NCBI GenBank assembly: GCA_944470555.2
Contig: OX104129.1
Span: forward strand, 84,404,820-84,468,819
Source: Heterobilharzia americana
Lineage: Eukaryota > Platyhelminthes > Trematoda > Strigeidida > Schistosomatidae
Direction: 5' to 3'
Length of the DNA: 64,000 nt
In this document: one piece after another, positions 2,334 to 58,420 of the stretch
Position numbering within the stretch: the first letter of the stretch is position 1
How the letters are laid out: each line of letters opens with the position of its first letter
Program-made: the position numbers and the translations under genes
Notes under the pieces: generated by a model
Seen by the model: the letters and a program-made list of their open reading frames with translations, nothing else
Told to the model about the DNA's origin: nothing
Database searches by the model: none

Positions 2334-5300
2334 GTAAGTGTAATTGCCTTTTATAGACTGTTATATAATTTAAGACTAGTATTCATCATAGACTGATATC
2401 TAGGAGTACTGGACAACTGTTTCATCCTAGTATAGAACTCCTCAGTAGTATGCATCCATGACCTGGCTAGGAATCGAAATCACGATCTTCAGGTTTCATG
2501 GTGAATGTTTTAGCTATTCAGCCAAACAGCTATTTGGTGCTCCCAGCTCCCAACTGCTCCCCAAATGATATCGGTCTATGCTGAATACTACTTCTAAATT
2601 AAAATCCCCATTCATCTAAAAAAAAATACATTGTTGTTTAATTGTTTAACTCTCTGCCTCCTACATAGGACTCATTTTTGTTACACAAAAAGGAATGAAT
2701 AAATTGAGTAGGCTGTTGAATGGTTTATATATAAAGATGAGACCATCATAGAGTCCTAATTTCCTAACCTTCTTTGTTGTATAGGTAATAAGATTACCCT
2801 TTTATCTCCGGAACAGATTCTTAGTCATTCCTGTTGTTGTATACGTTAAGTGTTGTTGATTGGATTAACAAAGATTCAGTTATCAATCTCTCCCTCCACC
2901 TTGTCATGTTAAGTTGAAGGACTTTCACTCTGTCTTAATCAGTCTATTATGTGGTTGTGTGAGATTGTATGCTTAGCTATGGGTGAGCATTTTTCTAAAC
3001 TCCTTACCTTACTAGGATCTACTAATTTTGATTTACCTAGATGTTTTGTGCTCGGATAGCCTAATTGACCTGGGTCGATTGCTTTGACCTATGTATTTAC
3101 CCTCACAATTGTTGCCCAATTGGATCAGTAGGATCTTTTAACCTACAAAGCTTGTTTAAATGCCACTCTAATCCCAGCCAACTTTATTGAGAATCTTACA
3201 CTGTCTCTGAGGTACCCTCTTTGTATGGTAATACTGTAGAGATTTCGAATTTTCTCTTCGCAGTATTGCCTTTACTATTATTAACATTATTATTACCACT
3301 ATTAACATACGTTACTAATATTAGGTATATTTTTCTTATGACTCCTAAGGAACTTGGGAGGGTAATTGTTGATGAGTAAAGCGTCTTTATTGCATATGGT
3401 TTCTTGTCTGAGATATTCTGTTTTATGAATAAGTTTGCTGAACCTGTTACTCATATTATACTTCAGAATCGATTACAATGTATTCTTTCTTCCCAAGTTT
3501 CATTACAAGTATAGAATATTGCACTGTCCTAAAAGATAAATTTCGTATTCTACTAAGCTCCCGTATGATCTGCAGATACAATTATCAATCACCTGGTCAC
3601 TGGTTCAACTCCCCCCCCCCCTCCATCTACCTTAGTTATCATACTCCATGAAGTGTAGTTCATAGACAGACTATTGCTTGTATCCCGTTGTTGATTTGAC
3701 TGAATCGTTCGATCTCCTGCACAGATACTTCGATATTGTGTATAATTTCACTTTGATGATTATGATCGATAGCTGCTAGCAGTGGGGATTCAAGGTGTGC
3801 GTTTCGGCAAACTTGTGATTTGTAGTTTTGAATCCAGTGCACCCGTTAGCCTCTCCAGGATGATGCGGCTTAATATTTTGCTTGCTCTGGGTGGACAGGA
3901 GAGTGATTCCGCGCCAGTTCTTGCAAACACTGAGGTCTCCCTTCTTCGTTTATGCTTTGAAGTTTCTTTAGCGGTTAGATTTGTTTTACGGGGTAGGGCT
4001 GCTAGCCCTATGCCCAACCTTCCCTCTTCACCCGGGCTTAGGACCGGCTAGTAACAAGTGAACTAGTTAACCAGGCGAGGTTAGTTATTTGATATTTTCT
4101 ACATAATTTTTCTCTTGTTTTATAGATAAATTTAATGATTTTATCTTACTTATACTGTATAATGATTGATGTTGAAATGAAAATCTCAACCGGGGCTGGA
4201 CTTGAACTACCAGTCAAGCGGTAGTAACACGTCATGAATTCACATGGTAGTTAGATAAAAACCCTTGGTAATTGAAGTGAAATAAAATCCTGGTCAGCAA
4301 TTGGGTCTCGTAGATCAGTTGGTAGAGCACCTGGCCCGGTAACCCGGTGGTCGTTGGTTCGAGTCCAGGCGCGGTCTAGATTTTCATCTCACCTTCAATC
4401 ATCTCCCAGCATGAATACTAGTTTGCTAAACTATGGCTATCTCAGATAGTCAAATACTGATTTTACCGTAATTTATTTATTATTAAAACAATAAATAGTT
4501 GTACTAACAATACTTTATAGAAAAGAAATTGAATGTTGAACTTAGTTAGTTCATTGTACCTCTGAAATAAGTTTCATTGAAATATTAATTTGAGGAAGTT
4601 ATGCAGTTGATATTGGGAAGGCATAAAGCACATCAAGAACTTCCACATTGTTCTAGATGATCTATTCTAAAGAAATATCAATCTTGTTGAAGACAATATA
4701 ACTGCATATCAATCTTATGTGTCACATTTCATCCCAATATAGTGAGAGTATGCCAATGTTGTTGGTTTTACTTTATTGTTCTAAACTTCGAAGATGATAA
4801 GTCGTAGATTTTTGTCGATTATGGACGCTAATTGTAATCCACATCTGAGGAAGTTTTTAATCAGCGATTTCACTTATCTCAAGTACCCTAACCGGGGAGC
4901 TTACACCATCTCAACTGACTTAATTAGAACCTGGTTTCTCCAATGCTTTTCTATAATCTCTGTTAGTCTCTTTTCAATGTTATTCTGCTCCAGCTGACAT
5001 TATGCGTGGGTGTATGTGTGTGCGTGTGTATGTGGCACACACTTTAACGATCAGTAAAACCTCACAAGTCTATATGCATTGCTGATTCTTTGATTTCATT
5101 GCATGCAAGTGGTACTACACAGGCTGCCGGTCATACGTTTAATCGACAAAAACAACAATAAAACTTGGAATGCATCTAACAATCGTTTACATACTGATGC
5201 ACTGTGCAATGAGCCATACTCGGACTGTGGTTCATTGGTCTAGGCACTCGATTTACAACCGATATATCATGCGTTCAAAACCTGATGTACCTACTATGAT

Positions 5301-8300: not shown

Positions 8301-11300
8301 CAGTGTCGGAGTAGATTATTGATTCTCCAGTTGACAGTTTGGAGAGTCCACTCCCATTCCATCTGCTTTCGCAAATCCCAAGCACTTCGATGTGATACCT
8401 TCTCATCTCGCTTGCAATCTGGGCTGCCTTACTGGGTTCAAACATCGTGCGGACATTCCATGTGCCCATCCTTACTTTCGCTTTGATCGAGGGAGAGAAG
8501 ACACATCGGCCAATTGGCTTCCCGAAAGCTTTCACCAACTGGCGTCATTTCGCCTCTCCGATTCCAGCGGGGAATAAGTTTGTTTTCATTTTTTATATTT
8601 TGTTTGTGCTTTGAAGTTTCTTTAGCGGTTAGATTTGTTTTACGGGGTAGGGTTGCTAGCCGTATGCCCAACCTTCCCTCTTTACCCGGGCTTAGGACCG
8701 GCTAGTAACTAGTCAACTAGTTAACCAGGCGAGGTTGCAGGGCGAAATGAAAGTGCATTATTTCTGCGTGCAATTCAGTGACTGGGTACAGGTTTTATAT
8801 ACCACTTTATTCCTCACAATTATCACTTTGTAAAGACCTATAGTGTCAACTGTGTACTCAAGTCACAGAACCTATATTTACATTCAGATATGCGATACAT
8901 GGCTAAATCATATTATGAATCAGTGGGTGTTGTGAAGAGCACAAAATCTACATTAAAACTCACCTTTCTGTCTCCCTATAACTTTGTTAAGAAATACGTA
9001 TTTGTTGCTTGAAACTCTATATGTGATATCACCTACTAAGGTAATTTTATTATTATATTGTATATATTATTTGTCCTTTGGGTTCCTAGTGGAATACACC
9101 GCTTCAGTTGCATGTCTCCACTACACTCTGTTATCACTCTGTTACCTCTTGAACCTGGCTCCACGACAACCCACAACCTCTCATTTCTGCCTCACACCAT
9201 CTCCTCCATGTCACCCTCGCCTCCAACAACCAACTCGTCATCTCCCATCTGGGTTCCACTCGAGGAACTGGCCTGGCGCATGATGTCCCCGAATGGTTTT
9301 CTCAGTGTATGCCCAGTCCAGTCGAATCCATCTCCACTCCCTTCTGCATATTTGTTGAGTGATGGGTTATTGGTTGGTTGCCAGCTAAGCAGAGTTGCTT
9401 GTTGCTTATTCTTATTATTCTGGGCATCTGATCTTGAGTGTCAGTAAGGAGCCAGCGTAGGCATTTGTTGATGACTATCTGTAGTTTGTTGGGAATGTCT
9501 TTCGTGATGCGCCAAGTCTCTGAACCATCCCGTGGAAGCAGTGACTTGAGTGACATTGGTGTTGAAAATCTGGATGTTGTTCACTGTTTATGCTGAGTGG
9601 AGTTCAGAAGATCTCCACACTGATTTGAGGTTGATGAAGCGAGGCCTGTATTGCTGTGTTTGCGATGTTTGCTGCTTTGACGTCGTGATGTGTGCCTGTG
9701 CCGCCTGTAGTTGAGATGATGCTTCTTAGATATGTGAAGGTGAAAGAGGCTACTTCGTTTAAGTTTCTCCCATTGATGGTGATTGGAACCTGTTGTTGTT
9801 GTTGTTGGTGGTGGTGTTGTGGGGGTGTTGGTTAGATATTATCATCACCTCTGTCTTCTTTATGTTCATTTGAAGTCCTGTCTTCGCTGCCCTGCCTCAA
9901 GTATTCTGTCAACTTGTTTTTTCGCCTGTAGATCTTCTGGTTTGTGCCACAAGTGATCGGTGAAATCGAAATCTTGTAGGATGTTTTTTGTCCAGTCCAG
10001 CGTATCCCCCTCTTCTCGTTCCTCACAGTTTGTTTACTTGCAACTAATCAAGCCATAGATTCGCCTTATAAAATAATCAATGCATAATTCTTATGTTTTT
10101 AGTACTTATCGAGTTCTGTAGGGCAGGTTTGCTTGCAAACTGGCTCTTAGACTTTGATGAGTTCCAGAAAATGTGAGGTGTAATGATTTCGTGTGGATTG
10201 ATTCCAGATGTCTGACGCGAAATCAAAGTACACTCTGATGTTAATTTATTTTATTGAACGGAAGTGTTTGACAGATTTTTCATGATTTGTAGTTGTGTTA
10301 GCAACTACTAACCCCGTAGTTTTAATACTATTGTCATTATTTTTATATCATATACACAGCTAATTTTAATTTTTTATTTTCTTGTTAGGTTGTTACACTA
10401 CTACCTGTGACAGAAGGCAATGACTCTAACATTAGTAGTAGTACTAGTCTGTCAACTGTTGAATATACTGATAAAAGTTCAAAAATTTGTTTATTTGCTT
10501 GGTCGAAACCAATCTATGCTAGAATGATTCATGAAGAAGTCTACTGTAAACAATTGAATCGAAAAGATAATAACACTGATGTTATTTCTTCATCTATGCC
10601 TACGTCAGATTTTCCATTCAGAGTTATGGCACAAAGTTTAGGTTGTCTACACGCACGGTATGTTCCAGTTGACAGTCTTTCAAAGCGTATACCATCATCA
10701 GTATTTAGCTCTTCTTTGTTACTGGATCAGTTCACATCATCATCATCTTCGTCAAGACAGTATCATTGTGAAGGAACTGCACATGGTCTATTACTTGATT
10801 TATTTGGCTTACCGGTTAGTGAATATTATGCATGGTTTGTCTGTTTGACGCTTTTCAATTGATGTGTAAAACGTTATATCTCGTCACACACACACACACA
10901 CACACTTGTTATGTAACGACTGATGGTACTACCTTGCTGTCCTAACCATGGTGATTGTAGAAAGGCATGAATCTATCTTCCACTGGTTGAAATTCTATTA
11001 CATAGGTAAATGAGTCGCTGTTCTACTGACGAAGAATGTTTTATCCGAAGCGGTAGTTCATCATGTCTTCACTTTAGTGGTATTATCCCTGAAGTCAATT
11101 CTATGAAGCTGCATAGAATACACTTAGTAAAGATAGTAGTATTCTCATGAATTGATCATCTGCTCCTTCATACTTAGATTGAATTCAAATACTTATCAAT
11201 GTATCATGATTATCTACACATTGGAAAGTCAATACTGACCGACTGAATTTAAGAACACCGTTATAAGAGGTTTGTTTCTTATCATTTTCTGTATACGTTA

Positions 11301-14300
11301 AAAAAAAACTATAGTCTAAAGCTCATAGTTAAATTTAGTAGAGTAATTGAAGTAAGAAAGCAATCAACCAAGCTTATTGTTCTGTTGTAGTGTATTTCTA
11401 CTGTCAGTTTCTTTGAATTGTTAGTGATAGTCAACAGGAACTTTACTATTCACCTTAGAATAACATATTTCCTTTCTAAAATTCATGTTGTATATTATGT
11501 CTGATATCAGTTAGGCGTCTAACTGCGGTTCAACAGATTAACTAACTAACTTTGAATCAAATAGGTCATAGGTTCAAAAATTATTCTATTTACCGAAGTT
11601 TATGTGTTTATGTGTTCACATATACCTTATACTATCTGTGTTAATAACTTCGAAGAAAGTCTGATATCTTTTTATAATAATCGAATAAGCATTGTTTATC
11701 CAAAACAACCTGAAGCACTAAAAACGTTGATTTGAATTGCTGTATTGTCTTCCTTTTTGGTTCCCTAGATCCGGAAGCAATTTAATCACTATGTACGATA
11801 ATTGATTCGTGTATTTTTTTTCTCCCTCATATCATGATTTTACTGAATAGGTCATAGATCGTACCGGAGAATTATTTATCAAGCATCATCAAGATAAAAA
11901 TTATCCTGCCTCTGGTATAAAATCTGATTCTTTCATGATACCATGTCGTTCATTGGATATGTTTTTAAAAGGTCTTATGCGTTTGATTATGTTATGGTGT
12001 TCTTCAAATCAATCCTTGTCTAATGCTAAGATTCATTCATCTAGTGATGGTAGCAGCAGTGGTAATGGTATTAACACCAACAACATCAGGCATCATGATT
12101 CTACAATTGCAATTGATCAGGATATTGTTAACTCGATAATTGAGTCGAAGGAGATAGATGCATTTTTGGTAAGTTCCACTTCATACGATGTATGTGGTCT
12201 TCATCTATGCGTTTCAACTATTTAAGTCAGTTGATTATACACACCCGATCATATATTCATTCTCCAGCATAGACAAATACTCCAGTTCCTTACATAGTGG
12301 CTTTCGATTCCCACGATCAAGAGATCTTGTGGTAATGTCTCAAACTGAAAAGGGTGTTGTTTAAGTATATCACTCCGTTGAAGACTTTATATGCAAACAT
12401 TCTTGGGTGTTTTAGTGCCAATAGCTAGGTGTTGTGTTTATCCAATGTTATCAGTCATGGCTACGCACTTTAACCTGATCATTGGCTTCTTGATGGTCTT
12501 GTCTGTCTGCTGTTGAGTTGATTTTAGAAAAATAAATCTTATCATTGGTACTTCTTTAGTAGACTTAGAGTAGGCAGATGATAAATTGATTTGTAAAAGG
12601 AGGAAGCTGACAGTATACCAAGTCTTCTAGACATTTTGAAAGGAGATTTAAGAATGTTTGAGGTGTGTTCAAACGCAAAGTTTTGCTCCAGAACTGATCT
12701 GCCTTGATTTTCCGTCCAACAGTAGGGAGTGAAATGGTTGAGCTCATGGGCCACTTTACTTACTCGGGAAGTTGAATCAGTCATTGTCTATCACACATGA
12801 GATAGATTTAGGCTGGAAACAACGTTGAAGGCGGCCAATTAATAACGTGACATTAGTTCGTATAGTCTTTGACCATTTATTTAGGCCATGCTGGGAAATG
12901 CAGACTCAAAACTAAACCGAAATCCGCTTATTATCTTTGTGCACATTCTTGCAGTAGACGATGAACCACACCTATTGTGTGACGGTTAATGACAGACACT
13001 GGAAACATCTAGATTGTTGCTTTTGCAAATTGTTGTTTTGAGATTCGCCTGTTCTAATATACCACTGGCACCGGAACCCATGGGGCATGAAGGATTACGC
13101 TATTTTACGGGCGAATCTTTTCTAACCCTCGTTTCCTGTAGAAAAGGCACTATCAACGTGGTACTACTGGTCATTCGAGGAAAACACCCAACTACTGTCA
13201 CACTCTCATCCAACCAACAGTACGACTTTGAAGGCCAATAATATTACGTGGCTGCGCAAACCTTGACATATAATATGTGTTCATCTAAGTTGTAGTAACT
13301 TGGATCGTTACATCATGATGCCAAGTTCCAAGTTGATATTGACAGGTTGACTTTATTCAGATGAGTATGAAACTTTGTTATGCGCCAGGCCAGGTACTCG
13401 AGTGGAATCCAGATAGGAAACAGTGAGTTGGGCGTCGGAGGCGAGGGTAACATGGAGGAGATGGTGTTAGGATGAAATCAAAGGTTGTGGGCTGTTGTGG
13501 AGCCAGGTTCAAGAGGTAGGAGATAACAGAGTGTAATGGAGACGTGCTACTGAAGCAGTGTATTCCACTAAGAACCCAAGGGACAAATAATAATAATAAT
13601 ATAATAGTCTAGTTGAAGTCTTTAACTTCTATATCGTACACTTCGTTTACTTTCTCTTTTCGATTGTATATATTCTTTGTTTTTTTTTCTCTTTTTTCCA
13701 TTATCTTCTAAGGTTGATCATCTACAATTATGTCTCAGTTTCAATATACCTTCTTCTATAATCTCTAATTCAAGTTTATTGCATACATCAAGTATTTCAA
13801 GACGTTTAATTGCTTATCTACTAAATAAAAAATTATTTCTTGACAGTACATTAGGTGCTAATATTTTTGCTAATTTATCACAAATTCTACCAGATCATAG
13901 TACACAATTAATTTATTTACTATCTGGTTCAATAAATGATCCAATTCTTCATAATACTATTCAAAGTAACAATAATATTATAGAAGATTCAATATTATTA
14001 CAAATTATTAATTGTATTTGTCCATATGGTGGACAAAGTAAAATTAGTTTAATGTAAGTTTGGTTGAAATAAATTTTGTAATTATTAATACTGTATACTT
14101 TAGTTGTACACCTATTACATAGGATACTTTTACTTTTATTCCATTCGACCATAAGTTTGTTTGTTTGTTTTTCAGATGGGAAGAACGCCAGCAAGGCGTA
14201 TCTGCAGTCTCGACGTAACTGATGTCCTGCCTGAGATTCGAGCCCGCATCACCCAGTGTTGTAGTCAGCAACTTTACCACTGAGCTATTGGGGCTGCGAT

Positions 14301-17300
14301 TGACATCCTGTAGGACTGGCTTACATGTATTGATTGGTGATGAGAGTGCAACCAATTTCATGTTGTCTAATTCTGAGTGCAGACTGAATTCTATCGATCG
14401 TATTTGCAATGTGATAAAGTCGCTGACTACAACACTGGGTGACGCGGGTTCGAATCTCAGGCGAGACATTAGTTCCGTTGAGGTTGCAGATACGCCTTGC
14501 TGACGAGTGCCAAAAAGCACGGGACTTAAGTCCAGGGTTTCCTACTGATTGCCTCCAACCAACTAACATCTACTAGTGTGCACTGCGATGCTGAGCTTCC
14601 TAGCTTGGTTGCTACATTGCAAATATGTTCCATAGAATTCGGTCTGTACTCAGGACTAGACAACATGAAATTGGTTTCACTCCCGTGATTTGATAGTTAA
14701 AAATGGTTTGTCAAGCATGACAACACAAATCGTGTTAATTATATGAACCTTCATTGAAAAATTAAAAACTGATGAGTAGTAGTGAATATGAATCTAAATA
14801 AGTTTGGACAAGAGGTTTCGGAACATGACGACGAAATAATTGGGAACTGAATCGCGATCAGGCAGACCATCGCAACAAGAATCAGTAGCAAATTACTTAA
14901 GAAGTGAATAGTGCCGAAACAGAAAAGAAAAAAAGGAGGTAGAAGGGACTGGAAACTAAAACTACGAAAAGAGAAGGGGTTAAACAGTATTCTTTTGCGT
15001 ACATAGTTCAGGTTTCTCCATATGGATGACAAGAGCTTCAGCTATGCAGAGAATACGAAGACAAACAGTCTTTGAGTGATTTTTTTTCGCTTTAAAGATG
15101 ACTTTAAATGAGCAGGTTCTTGAGACGGGGTAATTTTGTTCACGATGCTTTCAGTTATAGCATTGCTTATCGCTCTATTGTTACCTCTTCGTAACCACAC
15201 GAGGTAGTACTCTTCAACCTTTTTTGATAACAGTTGCATCTAACGAGCAGGTGAATTAATCATATAGACATAGAAGTGGTTAGATGCAAAAGTTTCTTCT
15301 TTGAGTTGCTGGAAATCGTTGGGCAATAAGAGAATACTAGTCTCAGCGTTGATTCAAAAGAAAATTATCCTTAAAGCGTTTGATATCCTCCTTTTCAGAG
15401 TGTCAGCGGCAGAATCACCTTGAAGTTTAGATTCATATAGAGTATCCTTTTTGGCACGATGGTAAGGTTCTCTTTGCGAGGTTTCGCTTACAACTCATAG
15501 GGAGGGACCCAACTGTTTAAGTTCATCAGTTAATCATTCCACGTTGGATTTCTGTGAATTGATCTACTCAACATTCCATCAGCTGTTCTTGTTGGCTGTA
15601 ACAATGGAGTTACAAGACGTATACTTTTTTTTCTCTATGACTCAATGGGCATGTTTCGTTGTATACTTTTTTCTAACTGATTATCTTCAGCTGAGCTCAG
15701 ATCACTTGAAGTCCTTGAATTATCGATGCTGTGCAGCAAGGTTGCATTATTCTCAATTGTTGGTCAACAAATGACAACTTGACACCTGTAAGCTACATCA
15801 ATTGGTCCACGCTCTCTAAGAAATACCACAATTGACTTCGAAATCGTTTACCTAATGACTGTCTCATAGTTTCACTACTCATGAAACCATTGATCTGAAG
15901 AATCAATCAAAGCGAAACGTCGTCGTTGCGATGGTCCATGCGACAAACGAAATCAGTGATTGGGTACTTCAGGAAACGAGGTTGAGAATCATTCTCAGTA
16001 GGCAGATGGATCCATACATTATTTTAATCCAAACATTTATATTACATTCAGTTATCTGCTTGGCTCTTGTTCTTCTTATCCTCCTCTTCTGATGATTTCC
16101 ACTACTTTTGCCCAAACATTTTTCTTTATTATTTCACCTTTATTCAATCTCGCTACTTCGTACCTCCATGTACTGATACGCTTGAGATTATGATGCTACA
16201 ATAGCAGGTCCCGTGTGGATATTGGCTGAATGATAATAGAAATATACAATAACTATGCACTAGATACTTAGTCAATAAAATGCGTTTGGATACCTCACGG
16301 TATTTAATTACAAGTGGGATCATTCGCAAAACGTCATTTTCAAGTTTCTTATTTGACACAACTACTTTTCGTTCAGGGGAATGATCAAGCTGTCTAACCA
16401 TGTGCACCAACTCATACACGTAGGCACATTTTATTTCACGAATAAATGACCCAGCTCAAAGAACACAATTCAACCAAAACCATCCACCTGAGCTACAAAT
16501 ATTCTCCATCATATCACATTTTATTTCATATCCAAAGTTGATGTAGACAGCCTATGAGATATCGCCTTACGTTTCGAATACATCAAATATTACACTTGAA
16601 ACTTCTAAAAACAAACACTACATCATTATTGTGATGAACTGTGACTGTTCAGATATGCCTGAGTTTATGTCTGATCCATTCATGAATAACGTTTGAATAT
16701 CTTATGACATTCTCATTGGTTATTGCTGTTTTATGCTACAAAAATCTTATTGGCTGTCAATTAAACACAACTTGCTGCGAGTGAGCTGGTGTAAACTGGT
16801 TGATGCGAGTACCTGAAATATGCGAATCGCACTTACAGTTCTCGTTTTTCTGAACTCCTCTAATGGTCACCCTGGTGAATGCTAAGATAACAAACCAGGT
16901 TTCTAAATCTCATACATTAACTACTTGCCTAGACAAACTATCGAAACCTGATTGGTTATTTCAGCTGTTACCACAGTGACACTCGGAGTGAGAGAGGAGA
17001 GACTTGACAACATTATATAATATAACGAGGTTATTATCTGAAAACAGACCAACGCAGATGAAACTTATGAAACATAGTGAAGGGAACCTAATTACCAAAG
17101 ACAAGAAACAAACGAAACCATGGACTGAACACTTCAAAAACCTCTTAAATCGACCACCACCACCACCACCACCACCTGCAACTCGTCCAGAAATACTGCC
17201 AGCAACCCAGCCACAGAACTACCAGTGAACACAAGCCCTTCGACAAAAGCAGAAGTGAAGTCCTGAATACCATAAAACTGCTGAAATCCGGGAAAGCAGC

Positions 17301-20300: not shown

Positions 20301-23300
20301 TAGTTGAGAGGATGCTGCTTTTCCGAGGTAGTTGGAAGAGACTACTTCGTTTAGGTTTCTCTCGTTGTTGTTGGTTAGGTATCTTCATCACCTCCGTTTT
20401 CTCTACATTCCCTTGAAGTCCTGTCTTCCTCCGCTGCCCTGCCTCACTTCTTCTGTCAACTTGTTAGTTTTTCGACTGTAGACCTTCGAGTTAGTGCCAC
20501 AAGACATTAGATATGTATCATCATCGGCGGTGATATGTAAATCTCCTTCTGGAATGTTCTCATTGGTCAAACAGAGTACGCCTATCTTCTGGCTCCTCAC
20601 AGTTGTCTGTTGCATGACCCAGTCGAGTCGACCACAATCAGGAAGATGATTGGTGATAGTAGACAGCCTTATCTTGTTCCTTCCTGTCTTCACTTCAAAG
20701 GCATCACTGAGCTTTTCATTGTGAATCACTAGGTATATAGCATCCTTCAATAGCTGTTGAATGAGGTGAGAAAACGAGAGGTTAGGCGATTTCATTCATT
20801 ACATTTGCACAATACTAGTTTATGCTTTTTTTTATTATTTCATGATGGAGTAAATGAAGGCAATATTGAGTTCATTTCAACCGGTTAAAAAAGAAACACT
20901 ACACCGATTCACTACTGAAAAGTGTAATAATTGATGCTTTTGCCAATACTAATCACTGCATCATAAGTGATTCACCATTCAAAGTCATCTATAAAATGTA
21001 AATGAATAGGATACGTTTCTATTCTCTCTGTACTACAGACCTCCTTGCTACATACACATACAACTGTAAATTTGAACAAGATGTATAAGCAAACAATATC
21101 ACTTTCACTAAGGTCCTTTGCACGTTTTACTCTAATACAATTAGCTTAATCTATCTGAAGAGTTAAATTAATCATGTAGATTTGTCGGTTAATATGATGA
21201 CTGTTTTAAAATGACGATGATGATAATAATACAAATAGTAAAAGTGATAATGTTAACTAAAGCACTTACAATATGGATGACGATAATGATGATAAGAACT
21301 AAGATAGCAGCATGAAAATGTAGGCAGACACTTAGATAATCAAACTGAGTGAAAAGTTTATTTGGGAAAATAAAAGTTACATAATACTGAAGGACTAGGT
21401 AAGTGGATAAACAAAGTTTAAACAAATACACTAACTATATGATAGGAGTGAAGAATAAGAAAAGGGGTAGGAAAAAAACTGAATGATAAAGTTATTAACT
21501 AAGTATACTATGACCAGGTGAGAGATAAGAGATGTACAAATTTCTTCTGGATACAAAGACTAGGATTATTATCTGAAATCCTCATAGCTTCAGCTATGTG
21601 TAAAAGACGAATTTGAATAACTTCAGAAAGGTGAGACGGTATACGGTGAATAATCATGAAAGCATTTTTCTTATCTACCAAGTGACCACTATCAACGAGA
21701 TGAGATAAAACTGAACTTTCCTTCCTTCCAAACCTTCTGCAATAGTGGTGTGAGTATATCGACTGTTGTCTCTGTGTCTGTTTTCAGTGCTTGTGGAGGA
21801 ATTCCATCTGGTCCTGTTGTTTTCCCGGATTTCAGAAGTTTTATGGTATTCAGGACTTCACTTCTGCTTTTGTCGAAGGGCTTGTGTCCACTGGTAGTTC
21901 TGTGGTTGGGTTGCTGGTGGTATTTCTGGACGAGTTGCAGGTGGTGGTGGTGGTGGTGGTCGATTCAAGAGCTTTTTGAAGTGTTGAGTCCATGATTTCG
22001 TTTGTTTCTTGTCTTTGGTAATTAGGTTCCCTTCACTATGTTTCATAAGTTTCATCTGCGTTGATATAGTATTATCAGTTGTCTCCTACCAGCAGCCTGT
22101 ACTGCTTCACTTGCCAATGTGTTGTAGAAGTGTGTTTTGTCTGTGAGTGCACTCTTCACTTCTTTGTTCAGTGTAGTGTTTTATACTTTGTACTCAGTTC
22201 CTCTTTTCCTTGTTCATTCCTGGATTGCACTAGTGTATCTTCTGCTTCACCATCTTCCTCACCTTGCTCTATCAGCTTCCATGTGTCCGTGGAGATCCAC
22301 CGCTTGTCTTGCTTCTACTTCTTTCCTAATACGGTTATGCAGGTTTTTTTCCGCATCTCTTTCAAAGAGTTCCAGTGTTCTTCCATGCAGGTTCCTTCAG
22401 ATTTGCTAGCCTTATGCCCAACCTTCCCTCTTTATCCGGGCTTAGGGCCGGCTGTTAACAAGTGAACTAGATAACCAGGCGAGGATATTGTTCTAATTTA
22501 CATGATGGGAATTTTTATATACAGCTGTGAAGAATGAAATCGGTGGAAATTATCATTATTATTATTTGCCCCTTGGGTTCCTAGTGGAACACGACGCTTC
22601 AGTAGCACATCTTTATTCAACTCTGTACTCTGCAATCTTTTGAACCTGGCTCCATGACTGCCCATAACCTTTCATTTCTTCCTCACACGATCTCTTCCAT
22701 GTGACACTCGGCTTAGACACTCAACTGGGTTTTTCCTCTTTGGGTCCCCATTGTTACTTTCGCTGACTTCGGGAGAAGATATATTGGCCAATCGGCTTCC
22801 TGAAGACTTTCATCAACTAGGCGTCATTTCGTCTCTCCGATTACAGCAAGGAATTAAGTTTATTTTTATTTTTTTTATATTTTCTTTGTACTTTGAAGTT
22901 TCTTTAGCGATTGGATTTTTTTTCCATGATGGAGGTTGCCAGCCGTATGCTTAACCTTCTCTCTTCATAAACATAAAGACAGCGTAGAAACTCTCTCATA
23001 GAAGTACCTCGCTTCAAGTTGTCACATGTCAAAGCATCATTTTAAGAAAAAATGCATCGAAAATGAGTAGTGTCAAAGTGGAAAATAAAGTGAGAGCTGT
23101 GGTTTAGGGTCACGGGTTCGAACCCCCACTACAACTATGCAGGTTTGAGCAGGCACACAATTTGTGTTACTCATTGCTACATCATGGATATGTGCACAAG
23201 ATAGCTGAATATGTTTCGTTTCTTTAGGGGGGTTGGGGGTGAAATTTGTAAGAAATGTGAGAATAAAAATGCATAAAGGTTAATCAGAATACTCAAAACT

Positions 23301-26300
23301 GCAAATAGTTAATACATCTATACTATTGCAATCGATTTTGGGCTATATCACAAAGAATCTTGAACTATTATTTCCCATTGTCTTGAGAATTTCAATCAAA
23401 TCAACAGTCAGACACTTGAATTTAAGCAATTAACCATCCATCAAATTTGGTCTGGGAGACCGTAATCAAGTAGTTTACACTTCATCTACACAGCTTGGAC
23501 TAACATTCAGTACTTCATCGACGTCTCGACCACTTCATTAGTGAGATAATAAGCCTGCTTTTAATACTAAGTAATATTATTTTGACTATCTGAGATAGCC
23601 GTGCTGGGTGATGATTCAAGGTGAGATAAAAATTTGGACCGCGGCAGGATTCGAACTGGTGATCATAGGTACTGCTCTGCGTTCCACTATCTATCCAATA
23701 ACTTTAAGTAGGTTTATGTGATGAAAGATGATTGTGTTATGTTATAGTGATTGTTATTGTCGTTTAGGTTATAATTAAGAGGTAATGTTTACAGTGTTAA
23801 GTGAAGTAGGCTTAGGTTGAAAAAAATGTCCAAGATGTCCGAACTGAAACATAATATCAGTCATTGAAATCTTTTACAATTTGTCTAAACCATGCACAGA
23901 AATGTAGATTTCTTTGTTGGCATCCACAAGACGATAGAAACCAATAGGTGATATAACTGAGTGTCGATGTCAGTCGTGCAGATGTACGCATACACTATTC
24001 TTATATTAATCATCATAGTGAATTCAGTATTTTCTTGTGTCTGGGAGCACTGGGCAACTGTTTCGTCTCACTGGTATGAGACTCGTCAGCAGTATGAACC
24101 CATGACCCCGCCAAAAATTGAATCCAGGACCTTCAGATTCTGTGACCAGCACGTTAGCTTTGAGCTACTGCATCGGAATCCAATGGTCCACACTTCCTAC
24201 TTCATTCAGTTCACGATGTATAGCTCGACTTTCAACCAATGTCTTCGTTGAGTAACTATCCTCATTCATTCATTCTATCTGGAGGTTTTCGGTAGTTTAT
24301 TTACTTATTTCTCTTTCGTCTTTCATGCTGCTTTGTCTCTTAATGTGATGATAGGGATGTGTAGGGAGTTGAACCGTCATGCGGTAATGCCTGTTCCTAA
24401 GTTTTACATTATCTTTATGTCTGGCTGTGAGAGGTATCATGATTAAGTGAAAGTTTATCATGGGATCGACTGACTAATTTCGTCTGTTTCATCGTTAGGC
24501 ACTTCGTTTTATCTGTTGAACAGCATTCTGATACCAATCAATAATTAAAAAAAATTTTTTCTCCCTATTTGAAATTTATTTTGTGCAATACAGCTGCTGC
24601 AGCTCCTTTTATTCGCCTTTCAAAAGAAACAGGACAAATAATTGATAATCTTCAGTCTGTATCAACCTTTTGGTCACATGATAATACAAGTCTTCCTGAA
24701 TACTTAACAACTCGTTTACATCGTATCCTATCAAATCCATCTGAAAGATCAACTGGTATTGGTCGTATAGGTGAATTGTATATTTATCATACACTTCTGG
24801 AATATATTCATCGTAATGAACATCATCAGAGTAATTTTGATGAGGTAACTAGTTATGAATTCCCTACAGGTCATCCAATACTTGGTGTTGGCCGACTTAT
24901 AAGATGTAATTGGTGTAATGCAGATACGGAGTCTTTAAGACCATATGATGTTGAAGTGGATGTTCAAGGTAAACCTATAGTATACTTTATATATCAGTGT
25001 TTTCTTTATTAATTCCATATTAGATTTGTTCATTTGATTTATAACACACAGTGATCTAGTTGATCAATCAATATCAACATAGGACCAGGCATTACTGCGC
25101 AACGGTCAGAGTTGCCACACCTCATATCAATACATCAAGTAGAAAAACAGTGAGGTGAAGGATGAAGACAAGAGAATGCAGTCAAAAGAAATATAAAGTA
25201 CGAGAAGAAAGAAGGAAGGATGAGAAAATGGTGAGATTCGGTATAGTGTAGTTAACATGAGGATAGTGTTTGTGGGCATACATCTGCACCACTGACATCG
25301 GTTCTCAGCCATCTCGTCACCTACAGTCAGTCTCCAACCACTGGTTCCTCTTGTCCCGTGGACCCCAATCACTTAGTCTGCATCGTCCTACATGGCTTAA
25401 ACCATCAGTTAGAGACATCATACACTGGTGCCATGTTTTAGTATGGCCACCTCGGGCCTTTTTCCAGCCTGGATCAACTTCGGCGAACACGACAGTGATC
25501 TAGTATTATTTACTTGATGACCATGTTTTGAGCATAAATTATCACTGCTCATTATTCCTACTCGCGGCATCTAATCCCCGATATAGGCGAGTATCGCATC
25601 ACTTCTATTCTATATGTGCTGGGTGGGCTTGATCCGACGAATAAAGATTAAGTAATCGATTCCTCCCTCTCTCTCCATCTCATTATATTTGACTTGAGTA
25701 AGTGGTTTTATCCACCACCCCATTATGTGGTTGTGTGTTAATCCATGCATACATTGCAATTGGCGAGTTTCCCTTCCGATTATTGATCTGATTGCAACCT
25801 GTCATTCTATATTTAGCTAAATTCCTATGTTCGGCTATTCTAACTGACCCTGACACTAACAGGGCTAGTTTCACCTATGTACTTGACGACACTCGCAGTC
25901 ATTACATGTAATTTGGTAGATTCGATTATTTTTGTGAATTGGTTCTATCGGATCCCTAACCACCAGGTGACAAAGTTTATCTGTGAGTGAGTTTGCAGGT
26001 TTCCGAATGCCACCGTAATTCGAGTTTAGTTGAGGAACCTACGTAAAGTTTGTAATGTGGTTGTGGTAGGGTTCCGAAGACTAAGTCTTACTGCTCACTA
26101 GACGGATGTATGATAAGAGTAAGGTGTTTTAGACGGATGAACAATAGTCCTTCCTGATGCTGCTCTCCTTATCACAATAAAAGGGTTAGAAAAGACTGTC
26201 GTAAAAATAGCTGACCAGCGAACTTGAAGAAGTCATGGGTGCGCACTGTTGAAGAGTCCCATACTAGTTCAGTGCTCTCAGGTCTCCAATGTTCCTCCAG

Positions 26301-32344: not shown

Positions 32345-32580
32345 ATAATCTTGGATTGACATTAGTTGGAAGAACATTGGAAACCTGGGACCATTTCACA
32401 GCTGTTTTGTCCCATCAGCATGAGACTCTTCAATAGTTCGCACCCATCACCCCACCCTACACGGACCTTCAGGTTTCGTAGCCACTGGGTTGGAGTCCAG
32501 TGGTCCATATTTCCAACTTTTATCAGTTCACGAAATTTTTCCCCACAGCCACAAACACTCAACGATGACATTAGATGACG
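32345..32580 (-). mobile_element. Hammerhead retroposon, left member of a head-to-head pair
   Basis: Minus strand carries the tRNA-like head (GGACTCCAACCCAGTGGCTA) and a decayed ribozyme: the core reads TTGAAGA ... CAAAAC instead of CTGANGA ... CGAAAC. Its 5' end faces the 5' end of the next copy. Confidence 0.7.
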
Positions 32581-32830
32581 GTTGGGCTATGTCATGAACT
32601 GACAAAACTTGAAAATATGGACTAGTGAAAATTCCAACCAATCAAGTTTATAGTAACATTACTGATTACGATCCTTTGCGGGGTCATGAATGCGTCCTGC
32701 TGAGAAATCCTATACTAAGAAAAAACAGCTATTCAATGCTTCCAGGTTCTCAATGTTCATGATGAATACTAAACTTGAAAAATCACTAAATCTCCACAAA
32801 TCAAATAAACAATCTGTCAAATGAACTGAA
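32581..32830 (+). mobile_element. Hammerhead retroposon, right member of a head-to-head pair
   Basis: Starts GGGCTATGTCATGAACTGAC and runs to TGATGAATACTAAACTTGAA. Ribozyme region CTGCTGAGAAATCCTATACT then AAGAAAAAACAGC retains only part of the core. Orientation opposite to 32345-32580. Confidence 0.7.
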
Positions 32831-47500: not shown

Positions 47501-50500
47501 GCTGAGCAGATGTTTTTCATTTCATTTCAATCACAAGGTAGGGTTTTGCCTGACCAACGTTACTACCGTTTTCTCGTATTCACACTGGCTGCCTACCAAT
47601 CAGGACTTCTCATCCTAATCGAAATCGAAATGAATTAGAAAGGTGCAGCATCATATTGATTATCATTTCTGACTATCTGAGGTAGCCGTGAGTGGTTTGG
47701 TAGACTACTACCGATATTGGATGGTGATGATTGAAATAAAAAGTTGGACAGTTGCCGGATTCGAACCGAAGACCACCGAGTTCCCGGACCGACGCTCAGT
47801 TGGTACAGCATCGGGTCGGAAACCCGGTGGTCTCTGGTTCGAATCCGGCCATGGTCCAAATTCTCATTTCACCTTCAATCATCACTCAGTATCAATACTA
47901 GTCTGCCAAACCACCGCTACCTCAGATAGTCAAAATGTCAATTTGATAAGTGTTCTTCTGCATAAATGATTCCAAGTTGTCAGAATTGTAGAATAAAGGT
48001 GATATCCATGTTTAGTGTGTTGTGTGTGAATTACAGATTGAGATTTGTATGTGCACGTGTGTTGATAGTTATTATCGTTCCCTTATTCCTATTTAGACAA
48101 TTATGATCCCCCTTTATGTGAAGAGATTCTACAATCAGACGATCAATCAATCAATATCAACATACGACCAGGCATTACTGCGCAACGGTCAGAGTTGCCA
48201 CACTTAATATCACTACATCAAGTAGAAAAACAGTGAGGCGCAAGATGAAGATAAGAGAATGCAGTCAAAAGAAATATAAAGTAAGAGAAGAAAGAAAAGA
48301 GGAATGAGAAAATGGTGAGATTCGGTATAGCGTTGTTAAGATGAGGATAATGTGTGTGGACACACAGCTGCGCCACTGACATCGGTTCTCAGCCATTTCG
48401 TCACCTAGAGTCAGTCTCCAACCACTAGTTCCTCTTGTCCGTGGACCCCAACCGACTAGTCCTGCATCGCCTTACATGGCTAAAACCAGTTGTCAGAGAC
48501 TTCATACATTGGTGCCATGTTTTAGTCTGGCCACCTCGAGCCTTTTCCCAGCCTGGACCCACCTCAGCCAACATTGTGTGACAAGGTAATTGGTGACTGG
48601 CATACGTAGTACGTGTCCCAACCATCTCAGTCGATAAAGGTTCATAATCTCGTCTACTGATTTACCTCTTCTCTCTAAAACTCTACACCTGACTTCTGTA
48701 TTACTCACATGGTGACACCACGGAATACGTCCTATACTACGAAGGCAATGCTGGTCGAATACCTGAAGCCTTCTCATGTCTTCCACCTTCAATGGCCATG
48801 TTTCACAGCCGTACAGTAGAACAGAGCAGACTGCTGTGCAGTACACGCGACCCTTAATGGACAAACGACTATCACGGCGGCGCCGTAGGTGGCGTAAATT
48901 GGCGAAAGCCAATCGAGCCTTTTGTAACCGTGCAGAGATTTCATCGACAACTAACCCACCAGGGTTGATCCTACTTCTCAGGAAAGTGAAGTGGTCGACA
49001 CACTCAACCACTTCATTCTCCATTGTTAGTCGCAGCACCGCTGAAGACCAGTCCTCGAGCAACAATAAGACGATCTTTATAGTTTCTCAAAGCCTTTCTG
49101 AATAATTTCGATATTGTTAAAATTGACCTTGTAACCACAAATTACAGCGAATAGAGCTATGGCTAAAGTGATTTCAGCTAAAGTGTGTGAAGACACTTCC
49201 TTCGAATTTGCCTGAGCTAAGTTGATGATACATTCGTAATTTCGAAATCTGACAAGTACACTATGCTGCAGTTCGCTTTGTTCTCTTATGCGGCTGTGAA
49301 ACATGGCCGTTAAATGAAGAAGACATGAAGCGATAACAGATGTCTGAGTAGTACTGCTCACGCTTGATGAAATCACCATGTGAACAATGGTATGGTCAAA
49401 CGAAAAGTGCTACACAGGATAAACAAGTCGATTGATCAGATTGTGAACCTTATTCGATTGAGATGGCTTAGATATATATGTACAGCATATGCCGATCCAC
49501 TGCCTACCTCGAGATGTTATGCTAGGGGAAGTTGGAATAGGTAGGAAGAAGGTTCAAGTTAGCCAGACGATAACCTGGCAAAAATCAACCAATTCTCTTT
49601 TTTTGTTGGTCTGAGTCGTGTAGGGAGATGTAGACTGCCTGATCAGGGTCCTAAGAACGAAAAAAATGCTTTACCTTCAAATTACTTGTTCGCTCACACA
49701 ACTTCGTCTACTTTCATACCACTCTCTTTCCATTCACTTCTTCTTTGTATACTACAGTGAAATGTAACAACTTGAAGTGATGCATTTATGTGACAGGCTT
49801 TTACGCTGATTTTCTCAGTCACTTGTCACATCCAATTACATAAAAGCAAAGTAAGTACGATAAATGGCTTTAAAACGTAAACAACACAACAAAAACAGCA
49901 TGCAAATGTCAGTCAATCAGTAAGGATCAACGCTCGTACTACAGTTACTGAAAGTGGCTCAATTTACTACACCTAACATCACTGAACAAAGATTCAACGA
50001 AACTGACCGAAATGAAAAAAAGAGATATGAAGAAAAAAATGTAATTGAAAGTCACAGCAAGTCAAAGATAAGAAGTAGAAAGTTAAAACAATGATGAAAT
50101 ATCCTATGAAAAGAAATTAGGATGAAAATAATACATCGCTGTATTTATGCTAGTGAGATTGACTGTGAACTGTATCATTTGGAGTTTCAGCCTACTGATT
50201 TCAGTTGTAATCCGTAGGCAAACCGAAAGGTTGACAACTCTCTGCACTACACCAATGTCAAATTGTATTATCATCACGTTGCGACATTATCATCATCATC
50301 ATCATCATCAATGTCAACATAGCACAAGGCATTACTACGTAACGGTCTGAGTTGTCACACATATCAGTACATCAAGCAAAAGGGTAGTGAAGTGGAAGAT
50401 AAAGATGATGAAATTTAGTCAAATGAAATATAAAATACTCAAAGAGAGAAGGGAAGAATGAGAAAATGGTGAGATTCGGTATAGCATCGTTAAGATGAGG

Positions 50501-54709: not shown

Positions 54710-55149
54710 CTGATATACATAAGGGAATAAAAGAGAATATTAATAGACTTTATGAAAAAGGCACAACGCGAGCTACATTTAGAATGTACAGTGAAGCAGT
54801 TTGTATTCCCTTTATTATAAAGGCATTTGAAATATTAGAAGGATAATTCTATGTCAGTTGGGTGTGTATCTGACATCCAGTGAGTGATCCCGTTCCGACC
54901 GAGACTCCCATCCAGCACTCAGATTCAAACTCCATAGTGTTATCCCACTAGGCTACTGAGTAGCCGACACATTACACAGAAACCTATATACCATCCAATG
55001 TACGACGGAACTTCAACTGACTTTCTAAAAGCACTGTTGCGAAGTGTAACAAGGTTAACCAGTATGTCTTTTTGAAGGGTCCTATTTTTCCTATCCACTA
55101 TTCATTGTTTTTTTTTATACAACATGTTGGTTTATGGGGATTTATTTGT
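54710..55149. other. Upstream NRDE2 flank or intron
   Basis: One tRNA-like relic near 54890-54965 (CAGATTCAAACTCC and CCACTAGGCTACTGAGTAGCC read as reversed box B and box A). No further NRDE2 exon is recognised to the left edge of the gene. Confidence 0.4.
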
Positions 55150-55320
55150 TCATTTCAGGTTGGTATTCACTATGGACTGACATCTATGACCCCGCCATGG
55201 ATGATGAAACAGCTCTACAGAGCTCCCAGGTTTCCAACGTTTCTGCTCCTCATGTTACTCCACGATGAATACCAACTTGAAATCAATAAATCCCCACTAA
55301 CCCCCAAATTGAATTGTTCT
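55150..55320. mobile_element. Chimeric hammerhead-retroposon fragment
   Basis: TTGGTATTCACTATGGACTG is a reversed 3' end, immediately followed by plus-strand GATGAAACAGCTCTACAGAG and TACCAACTTGAAATCAATAA. The ribozyme 5' half is missing. Confidence 0.55.
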
Positions 55321-55429
55321 AGTGCTCATTAGTGACTAGCTTTGAGAGGTGATTCCCGAAGTTCTAATGAATAGTCGTGACTAGTGGGGCAAACCCGGTG
55401 CACATGATGACAAATATCAAACGATGAGA

Positions 55430-55690
55430 TTGGCTGATGGTCACGCTATATCGTGAACTGACAGAAGTTGGAAATATGGCTCATTGGATTCCGACACGGT
55501 GACTCAATGTTAACGTGCTGGTCGCGGAACCTGAAGGGTCTGGGTTCGATCTCTGGCGGGGTCATAGGTGAGCACTGCTGAGGAGTCGCATACTAGGACG
55601 AAACAGCTGTCTAGTGCTTCCAGCTGATCGATGTCTCTCTAATTCATGTCAGTCCATGACGAATACCAATATGAATTCAATCTTTACAAT
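55430..55690 (+). mobile_element. Full-length-like hammerhead retroposon (Sm-alpha-like)
   Basis: Order: leader (ATCGTGAACTGACAGAAGTT), tRNA-like Pol III promoter (GACTCAATGTTAACGTG box-A region; GGGTTCGATCTCTGG box B), hammerhead ribozyme at 55571-55618, and 3' end (CCATGACGAATACCAATATG). Schistosome Sm-alpha repeats have this combination, and their ribozymes process multimeric transcripts. This is the best-preserved copy in the window. Confidence 0.8.
55571..55618 (+). ncRNA. Hammerhead ribozyme, complete predicted core
   Basis: Type I layout. Stem I: AGCACT (55571-55576) with AGTGCT (55613-55618). Core: CTGAGGA 55578-55584 (C3, G5, G8 present), stem II GTC/GAC with loop, GAAA 55600-55603 (G12 present), minimal stem III CAG/CTG, then TC with cleavage expected after C at 55611. 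All catalytic nucleotides are present. The one stem II blemish is a G-G mismatch at 55588/55596. Activity is an inference from structure. Confidence 0.85.
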
Positions 55691-56239
55691 TTCAGCAAAA
55701 GACGCAATTTTACTAAGGAAACACAACGAATGTTGTTGATCAACAAGTCATGTTTTGTAATACTTCAAATGTCAGAAAAATACAGAATTCATTGACCATG
55801 CAACACCTACTGGGTGAGAACTAACGAATGACCTACCTACCTATTCGAAGCTTTCTCTGTACTTCGGTCAACCTTCGGAACCTACACCTTTCGGTCAAGA
55901 AATATGACAATTCGGGAACTGAAATCTCGAACAAAATACCGCACACAAATAGGATTCACAACTTTGAAGAAAAGAGTCATTTCAACTTTTCATGACTAAC
56001 TAAATACTAAGGATATGCAACGCATGTTACGGCTATGCAATACCTTTAGAAGCCTAAGCCTACGGCTAATAAGTGATATTTTACTAAAAATAACCTCTCC
56101 TCAAATTAAAATGCATGTCTCAGTGCTCAAATTGCATCAAGTTTGCGCTTCGAATAAAAAACAATGCTATACATAGTAAGTGTTGAAAGAACTGATGGAA
56201 ATCAATGTTCCGTACTAATTGAATGAGCTTTCAGTCAGT

Positions 56240-57655: not shown

Positions 57656-57666
57656 TACGTCACAAT
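57656..57666. repeat. Target-site duplication, left copy
   Basis: TACGTCACAAT, repeated at 61276-61286 around the plus-strand RTE-A copy. Confidence 0.8.
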
Positions 57667-57865
57667 TAATCTCGCCTAGTTATCAAGTTCACTAGTTACT
57701 AGCCGGTCCTAAACCCGGATAAAGAGGGAAGGTTAGGCATAGGGTTAGCAAACCTGCCCAGTAAAACCAACCCAAATACTAAAGAAACTTCAAAGCACAG
57801 ACAAAATATAAAAAATAAATACAAACTTATTCCTCTTTGGAATCCGAGAGGTGAAATGATGCCAG

Positions 57866-58420
57866 TTGGTGAAAGCCTTTGGGAAGCCAATTGGCCGATA
57901 TGTCTTCTCTCCCTCGATGAAAGCGAAAGTAATCGTGCTGACATGGAATGTCCGCACCATGTTTCAACCCAGCAAGGCAACCCAGATCGCAAGCGAGATG
58001 AAGAGGTGTCACATTGAAGTGTTAGGAATTTGCGAAAGCAGATGGAATGGGAGTGGACTCTCCAAACTGTCAACTGGAGAATCAATAATCTACTCTGACA
58101 TTGTCACACAGACGACAACCACGAGCACACTGAGTTATGGAGTGGCTATCATAATGTCCCCAACAGCATCGAAGTCCCTCATGCAGTGGGGACCAATCTC
58201 CTCCTGCTGGATCATAACAGCGAGGTTCAACTCAAAAGGAAGGAAGGAAGGTCACAATCATACAATGCTACGCTATGCACCTACAAATAATGCAGAGCAA
58301 GAGGAGAAGAAGGAAGAACTCTACAGACAGTTGCAATCAGTAATGGACAGGACCCCACCCCAGAGAGTGACATCATCGAAGGCTCTCTTTCATGCAGTGG
58401 GAACCAGTCTCCTTCTGTAG
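57866..58420 (+). pseudogene. RTE-A endonuclease remnant
   Basis: N-terminal half of the APE-type endonuclease (TWNVRTMFQPSKATQIASEM, EVLGICESRWNGSG, YGVAIIMSPTASK). Frame is lost before the GDMNAKLG and SDHYLV motifs. A segment of the coding (AAGGAAGGAAGGTCACAATC region) reappears at about 58440-58570, indicating a tandem duplication of about 190 bp. Confidence 0.8.

Follow-up and report, generated by a model that had tools for sequence, protein, structure and literature searches.

Repeats that carry a hammerhead are very numerous in some animal genomes. Close described systems are found in S. mansoni, for which about 38,500 hammerhead candidates were reported (PMC2770079). The Sm-alpha/W36.2 SINE-like elements of this species are small abundant repeats with a type I hammerhead and a very short stem III, as is the repeat studied here (PMC8490949, PMC2770079), although the Sm-alpha/W36 unit measures 332-335 bp against 403 bp and differs in loop II and stem III (PMC8490949). 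The W27.2 repeat has a hammerhead-bearing unit of 403 bp, the same length as here, and is likened to ours by unit length alone; it is dispersed over the autosomes in tens of thousands of pieces, and the satellites W25.2/W26.2 are grouped with it as close systems (PMC8490949). Metazoan non-LTR retrozymes are described as non-coding repeats, a few hundred bp long, that have a type I hammerhead and occur in tandem copies (PMC7229834, PMC7761336), and the same combination was found in the 403-bp unit and its array. Head-to-head pieces and paired 3' ends, both present here, do not figure in the accessible portions of these retrozyme descriptions (PMC7229834, PMC7761336). Penelope elements have been named as strong candidates for moving animal retrozymes, which was proposed and not demonstrated (PMC7229834).

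Penelope-like elements have in common with the present repeat a head-to-head inverted terminal piece, a partial tandem, a short tail, short target duplications and an association with hammerheads (PMC3846280, PMC11167929). In the rotifer elements direct pLTRs are adjoined by an inverted pLTR, the head-to-head arrangement being the commonest, with a 31-bp tail on one inverted end and target duplications of 8-10 bp. The authors attribute the inverted pieces to self-priming and report that cross-mobilisation was not seen between two Penelope types and that one host gene was moved in trans (PMC3846280). For a lizard Penelope protein, cleavage and extension were found on both strands of the target, with initiation at two neighbouring internal sites, which the authors tie to the tail that is common and unique to Penelope elements (PMC11167929).

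The window analysed here (the whole stretch of 64,000 nucleotides) contains a complete hammerhead in a 1.2-unit copy of a 403-bp repeat. This repeat was probably inserted by a Penelope-type reverse transcriptase from an RNA with a predicted hammerhead-cut front. Penelope machinery is the likely agent because the copies bear the marks of Penelope insertion and Penelope-type frames are present in the genome. The unit itself is too short for a reverse transcriptase and a GIY-YIG endonuclease and can therefore be at most a non-autonomous passenger. The hammerhead and its parts are as follows.

55572..55617, + strand: type I hammerhead with complete core, predicted cut 55611/55612 (RF00163, 40.0 bits, E 1.1e-6)
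55578..55584, + strand: core strand CUGAGGA (direct reading, in agreement with the Rfam core)
55585..55599, + strand: stem II, three pairs GUC/GAC with the mismatch G55588-G55596 above (cmscan mismatch marks)
55603..55610, + strand: stem III, the palindrome ACAGCUGU, which can form two pairs around a four-base loop in a single molecule and eight pairs between two molecules (direct reading)

The initial annotation had placed a complete hammerhead at 55571..55618 with expected cleavage after 55611, and its coordinates, letters and predicted cut site were borne out by direct reading, which gave GAAA at 55600-55603 and GUC at 55609-55611, and by a descriptor search. The elements of a type I core (CUGANGA, GAAA, A15.1-U16.1 and H17) were all found at 55572-55617, so that the core is intact as had been claimed. 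In the covariance search, which had been suggested as a check, the score exceeded the gathering score of Rfam Hammerhead_1 (34 bits), the E-value being computed over the whole 64-kb window, and the match was obtained again when 651 bases were searched separately. A search of both strands of the window with a strict type I descriptor found this single site, and 60 simulated stretches (64 kb each, first-order Markov) gave no match; a chance match was therefore rejected. Stem I does have the six pairs attributed to it, the pair adjoining the core being G.U, and energy folding predicts the further distal pairs GGUCA/UGAUC and GG/CC. The G-G mismatch noted in stem II is likewise present.

The three-pair CAG/CTG stem III that had been drawn cannot be maintained, since no loop would remain and closure as a hairpin would be impossible; the stretch is a palindrome. 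Other palindromes occur at the same position in the Rfam consensus (ACGCGCGU) and in the hammerhead at 14494 (ACUUAAGU). The palindromic stem III suggests that cutting by the window hammerhead may be more efficient when two neighbouring motifs pair up than when the motif acts singly. Dimeric hammerhead action was described for amphibians (PMC7229834, PMC6155905) and for Penelope elements (PMC7761336), and palindromes in stem III have led to the suggestion that it may occur (PMC3088659). With ViennaRNA, the hammerhead fold of the monomer was predicted at -4.7 kcal/mol against -12.2 kcal/mol for the preferred competing fold, and the double hammerhead of the dimer at -25.3 against -30.0 kcal/mol for the best dimer. 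The Rfam consensus, used as a control, gave -7.8 against -12.8 kcal/mol as a monomer and -33.7 against -34.9 kcal/mol as a dimer. As the control also prefers a fold other than the hammerhead, energy folding cannot decide on activity.

A genome search with window positions 55308-55690 yielded at least 73 matches, at least 31 of them on contig C128 and at least 42 elsewhere; these counts are lower bounds, 40 of 9,010 candidates having been scored. Between positions 71,025 and 83,487 of C128 the matches follow one another at 403 bp or at whole multiples of this distance, and three further matches on C128 lie about 5.5 kb apart. The reference unit taken from this array is identical to the next unit and differs from the previous one. 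On this unit the predicted cut falls after position 309 (GAAACAG begins at 298). Aligned to it, the window locus consists of two parts.

55129..55183, - strand: inverted second piece, unit 344-396, with a long-type 3' end, head-to-head with the main copy
55203..55675, + strand: contiguous 1.2-unit main copy with 79% identity to the satellite unit, running from unit position 295 into the next unit as far as 373

The main copy begins within a first hammerhead, in its 3' half, and has a short-type 3' end (unit 373). Because the upstream hammerhead retains its 3' half only, the window locus alone has one cut site. A 394-bp tandem dimer releasing a unit from this locus was rejected, the offset itself being real. 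Position 55420 was rejected as the 5' end of the element, as the genome search assigned 55308-55419 to the 403-bp unit. No target duplication above chance was detected around 55380-55432 and 55662-55730, where 97 of 150 random placements were as good, and the left stretch 55380-55432 is not the end of the insert. A duplicate of the locus, 97.7% identical over at least 3.37 kb, lies at a distance of about 32 Mb on the same contig. By eye we take 55500..55553 (+) to be a tRNA-like stretch, with an A-box-like part at 55500-55515 and a B-box-like part at 55543-55553; it was called neither by the Rfam tRNA model nor by ARAGORN.

Further hammerheads and repeat copies were present in the window.

2400..2495, - strand: repeat copy with a hammerhead at 2406-2451, 31.6 bits, under the cut-off (Rfam and unit comparison)
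14494..14538, + strand: second-family hammerhead, 35.0 bits, above the cut-off, with GGGAC in place of the core GAAAC, bordering the inverted repeat 14186-14505
24041..24264, - strand: repeat copy with a hammerhead at 24047-24095, 20.1 bits (Rfam and unit comparison)
32354..32748, both strands: two broken copies placed head-to-head, the minus arm at 32354-32536 and the plus arm from 32551

The right edge of the inverted repeat at 14186-14505 (320 bp) ends within the second-family hammerhead. A stepwise decay of exactly the core positions had been described for the other copies in the window. Core damage was indeed seen: the copies near 26.2, 32.4, 32.7 and 42.9 kb have a broken core or are deleted, and the hammerhead at 24047-24095 (-) keeps CUGACGA and GAAA with GCC at the cut site in place of GUC. 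The description holds in part only: the hammerhead at 2406-2451 (-) retains CUGAGGA, GAAA and GUC, and the flanks diverge too. From the majority of nine window pieces the 55572-55617 copy itself differs at 3/46 positions in the hammerhead and 22/127 outside it.

In the genome (664.9 Mb in 337 contigs) a first-look search turned up 207,358 hammerhead candidates; the 74 that were scored all lay above the Rfam cut-off, and the best of these reached 73.2 bits. In 33 sibling loci of the repeat Rfam found 34 hammerheads above the cut-off, spread over 24 loci; counted among them are the window copy, its duplicate and, in L012, one that lies beyond the mapped main copy. As 24 of the 34 outscore the 40.0 bits of the window copy, and higher scores occur elsewhere in the genome, the view of this copy as unusually intact, and as standing out as potentially active, was rejected. 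What stands of the initial annotation is a complete type I motif in a small repeat of schistosome type; its outstanding rank does not. The motif is an ordinary, predicted-to-work hammerhead of a very abundant mobile repeat.

Whether this particular motif still cuts is a question separate from the route of insertion. It is quite possible, if not quite probable, that it is a fossil without cutting. The copy is 79% identical to the satellite unit, and its hammerhead differs from that of the unit at 2/46 positions, both of which weaken pairing (G for C at 55588, giving the G-G mismatch, and T for C at 55612); the predicted monomer fold is also unfavourable. Against this, every core letter at 55572-55617 is intact, and the three S. 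mansoni W-element hammerheads with a perfect core, among the five reported as tested, cut in vitro, whereas the two with core or cut-site damage failed (PMC8490949).

The insertion architecture was analysed in 33 dispersed loci (L009-L022 and L039-L057, L009 being the window and L010 its duplicate), which were picked by similarity to 55308-55690 alone, cover all 42 matches outside C128 and were mapped onto three joined units. Main copies extend to about 1.25 units, with a longest arm of 520 nt. Among junctions within 150 bp, 26 were minus-plus (head-to-head) and one was plus-minus (tail-to-tail; sign test 2e-7). The 26 head-to-head junctions sit in 23 of the 33 loci and their spacing is mostly near zero. 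The window locus lies outside these 23 and has the same head-to-head plan by a more permissive comparison. The outer 3' ends of 25 pairs with a gap of at most 60 bp were classed as short (unit 362-383) or long (unit 396 to 14), about 33 bp apart. The class borders were chosen after the ends had been seen, and six of the 25 pairs were dropped for an end outside both classes; with these borders one end of each class was present in 18 of the 19 classifiable pairs (permutation p 0.00027), the exception being L039 with two short ends. The window locus fits this pairing, its inverted piece ending at unit 396 and its main copy at 373.

In the eight young pairs, defined by both arms being at least 94% identical to the unit, a single target duplication surrounds the whole insert, of 12-13 bp in six, 8 bp in one and 6 bp in one. 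Each of the six duplications of 12-13 bp was set against 40 random placements, and no placement attained the observed length. In older pairs a shared end word of at least 10 bp was seen in 3/16, and the young single copies L018, L045 and L057 revealed no target duplication. An inverted second piece, a tail of about 30 bp on one inverted end and one short target duplication, as expected of Penelope machinery, were thus all found. Because of the orientation bias, the paired 3' ends and the shared duplication, a pair is taken to be one insertion.

The front ends were followed in 59 arms (a classed 3' end was needed, ends up to unit 392 were counted and L010 was left out). Five start at unit 282-309, 13 at 310-360 and 14 at 361-412, none starts upstream of unit 282, and 27 are shorter. 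The five begin 2-28 bases upstream of the predicted cut, the window copy by 15 bases (unit 295), which implies that the hammerhead cut does not strictly define the front end. Sequence variants are nearly all common to both arms in L017, L020, L044 and L051, and few are in most others. Given this mixture, an insertion may draw on one template or on two, and a single two-template model may not cover all loci. In 10 of the 33 loci (L017, L020, L040, L041, L046, L047, L049, L050, L051 and L052) an above-cut-off hammerhead is present on each strand, so that RNA of either polarity would carry one. Six of the eight Sm-alpha-type loci with the best-scoring hammerheads among the 74 (L001-L008) have an inverted repeat at the hammerhead or within about 200 bp; judging by these eight loci, the head-to-head plan is probably not confined to the 403-bp family.

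We infer self-cleavage and mobilisation of the repeat by the following course. Transcripts of the array, or of several units, would be cut by the hammerhead to give an RNA that starts just after unit position 309. Reverse transcription would start at two internal sites about 33 nt apart, with one priming event on either strand of a staggered cut in the target, and the two DNA copies would meet with their 5' ends together and then be joined. The two-site, two-strand priming step is modelled on the lizard Penelope protein (PMC11167929). Self-priming may be an alternative source of the inverted pieces. A plausible job of the hammerhead would be to trim the front end of the RNA template of reverse transcription; hammerhead mutants of the lizard element are reported to insert still in vitro (PMC11167929), which counts against an essential role of the cutting.

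Three other routes have to be set against insertion by Penelope machinery. The repeat could be a SINE moved by an RTE or another LINE, its inverted pairs arising from later recombination or from mutually attracted insertions. In favour of this, the window is rich in RTE-type elements, and LINEs commonly mobilise tRNA-like SINEs. Such an origin is nevertheless quite unlikely in view of an orientation bias of 26:1 at mostly near-zero spacing, of the paired alternative 3' ends and of the one duplication that encloses both arms in most young pairs. As a partial control, in which about 256 bases per copy were matched, the best 40 of 3,251 candidate copies of an RTE-type 3' end were inspected; they had no head-to-head neighbour within 1 kb. 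A single tail-to-tail neighbour was seen, as was one minus-plus pair at a distance of 3.6 kb. Spread of satellite DNA by recombination or extrachromosomal circles, with the hammerhead and the architecture being irrelevant, would account for the large array. DNA circles would not predict fixed 3' ends, target duplications of 12 bp or a head-to-head structure, and this route is highly improbable.

A circular retrozyme RNA could also have been the template: the hammerhead would cut, a ligase would close the circle and reverse transcription would give tandem copies. The tandem array of 403-bp units agrees with this, and metazoan retrozymes are reported to be expressed as circles (PMC7229834). The dispersed copies, however, end at about 1.25 units, their long arms start near the hammerhead cut and not anywhere on the circle, and a template with an uncut second hammerhead and a tail is better explained by a linear RNA. 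We therefore consider a circular template unlikely; circles may exist beside the linear-RNA route. Insertion of a linear RNA by Penelope machinery is retained as the preferred reading, and it is likely that the hammerhead SINE-like repeats of schistosome-type genomes in general are non-autonomous Penelope elements, inserted by a Penelope reverse transcriptase that acts on the two sides of the target simultaneously. If true, two-sided insertion leaves head-to-head copies with paired tails, in which an intact hammerhead is possible on both strands, and the long-sought helper of animal retrozymes would be named. The insertion signature can be read from any good assembly, which makes the proposal of a Penelope helper directly testable. 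In titles and the openings of abstracts among the matches listed by a literature search, this signature was not reported for retrozymes.

Candidate helpers were sought in the genome. A search with PF01541 gave two loci, L059 and L060. L059 reads like the host nuclease SLX1 when inspected by eye. The frames of L060 are broken and include one frame piece to which Pfam gave no name. This piece had at least 150 scored matches among 2,541 candidates; the longest frame measured 809 aa, and some of the matches formed minus-plus pairs at close range. One locus, L061, has an 808-aa frame with RVT_1 (Pfam), pLTR copies in direct and inverted orientation, and the 13-bp repeat AAGAAATGAATTT at both ends as a target duplication. 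Near the end of the frame we noted by eye what is presumably a GIY-YIG-like motif; Pfam reported no GIY-YIG in this frame. The Penelope label of L061-type loci rests on the reverse transcriptase, the layout and motifs read by eye. Against PDB the Penelope-type frame gave weak matches alone (E 0.28 and higher), some of them to reverse transcriptases. Another Penelope-type locus, L062, has two inverted arms of 1.95 kb that are 99.4% alike. Apart from its shortness, the 403-bp repeat differs from these elements in sequence: in the two loci compared, L061 and L062, no convincing similarity to the 3' end of the repeat was found, the longest common word being 10 bases, and Rfam detected no hammerhead in either.

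Some other structures in the window were recorded. A near-palindrome at 47650-47947 (298 bp, arms 74% alike) has a tRNA-like match and no hammerhead match; it also draws microRNA matches, which are probably spurious. Four matches to the type-P1 twister were obtained at 44-49 bits, under the cut-off of 67.2, at 4014-4087 (-), 8668-8741 (-), 22418-22491 (-) and 57663-57736 (+). One of these lies directly upstream of an RTE-type endonuclease frame, a second occupies the same place in the 87%-alike counterpart of that RTE element, and two are in rearranged copies. RTE elements that have a truncated twister at their 5' end have been mentioned as work in preparation (PMC7761336). Directly downstream of the twister-like sites in two RTE-type copies, SECIS_1 matches were found at 57846-57911 (+; 35.1 bits) and 8493-8558 (-; 31.6 bits) against a cut-off of 35; these are probably a hairpin of the RTE-type element.
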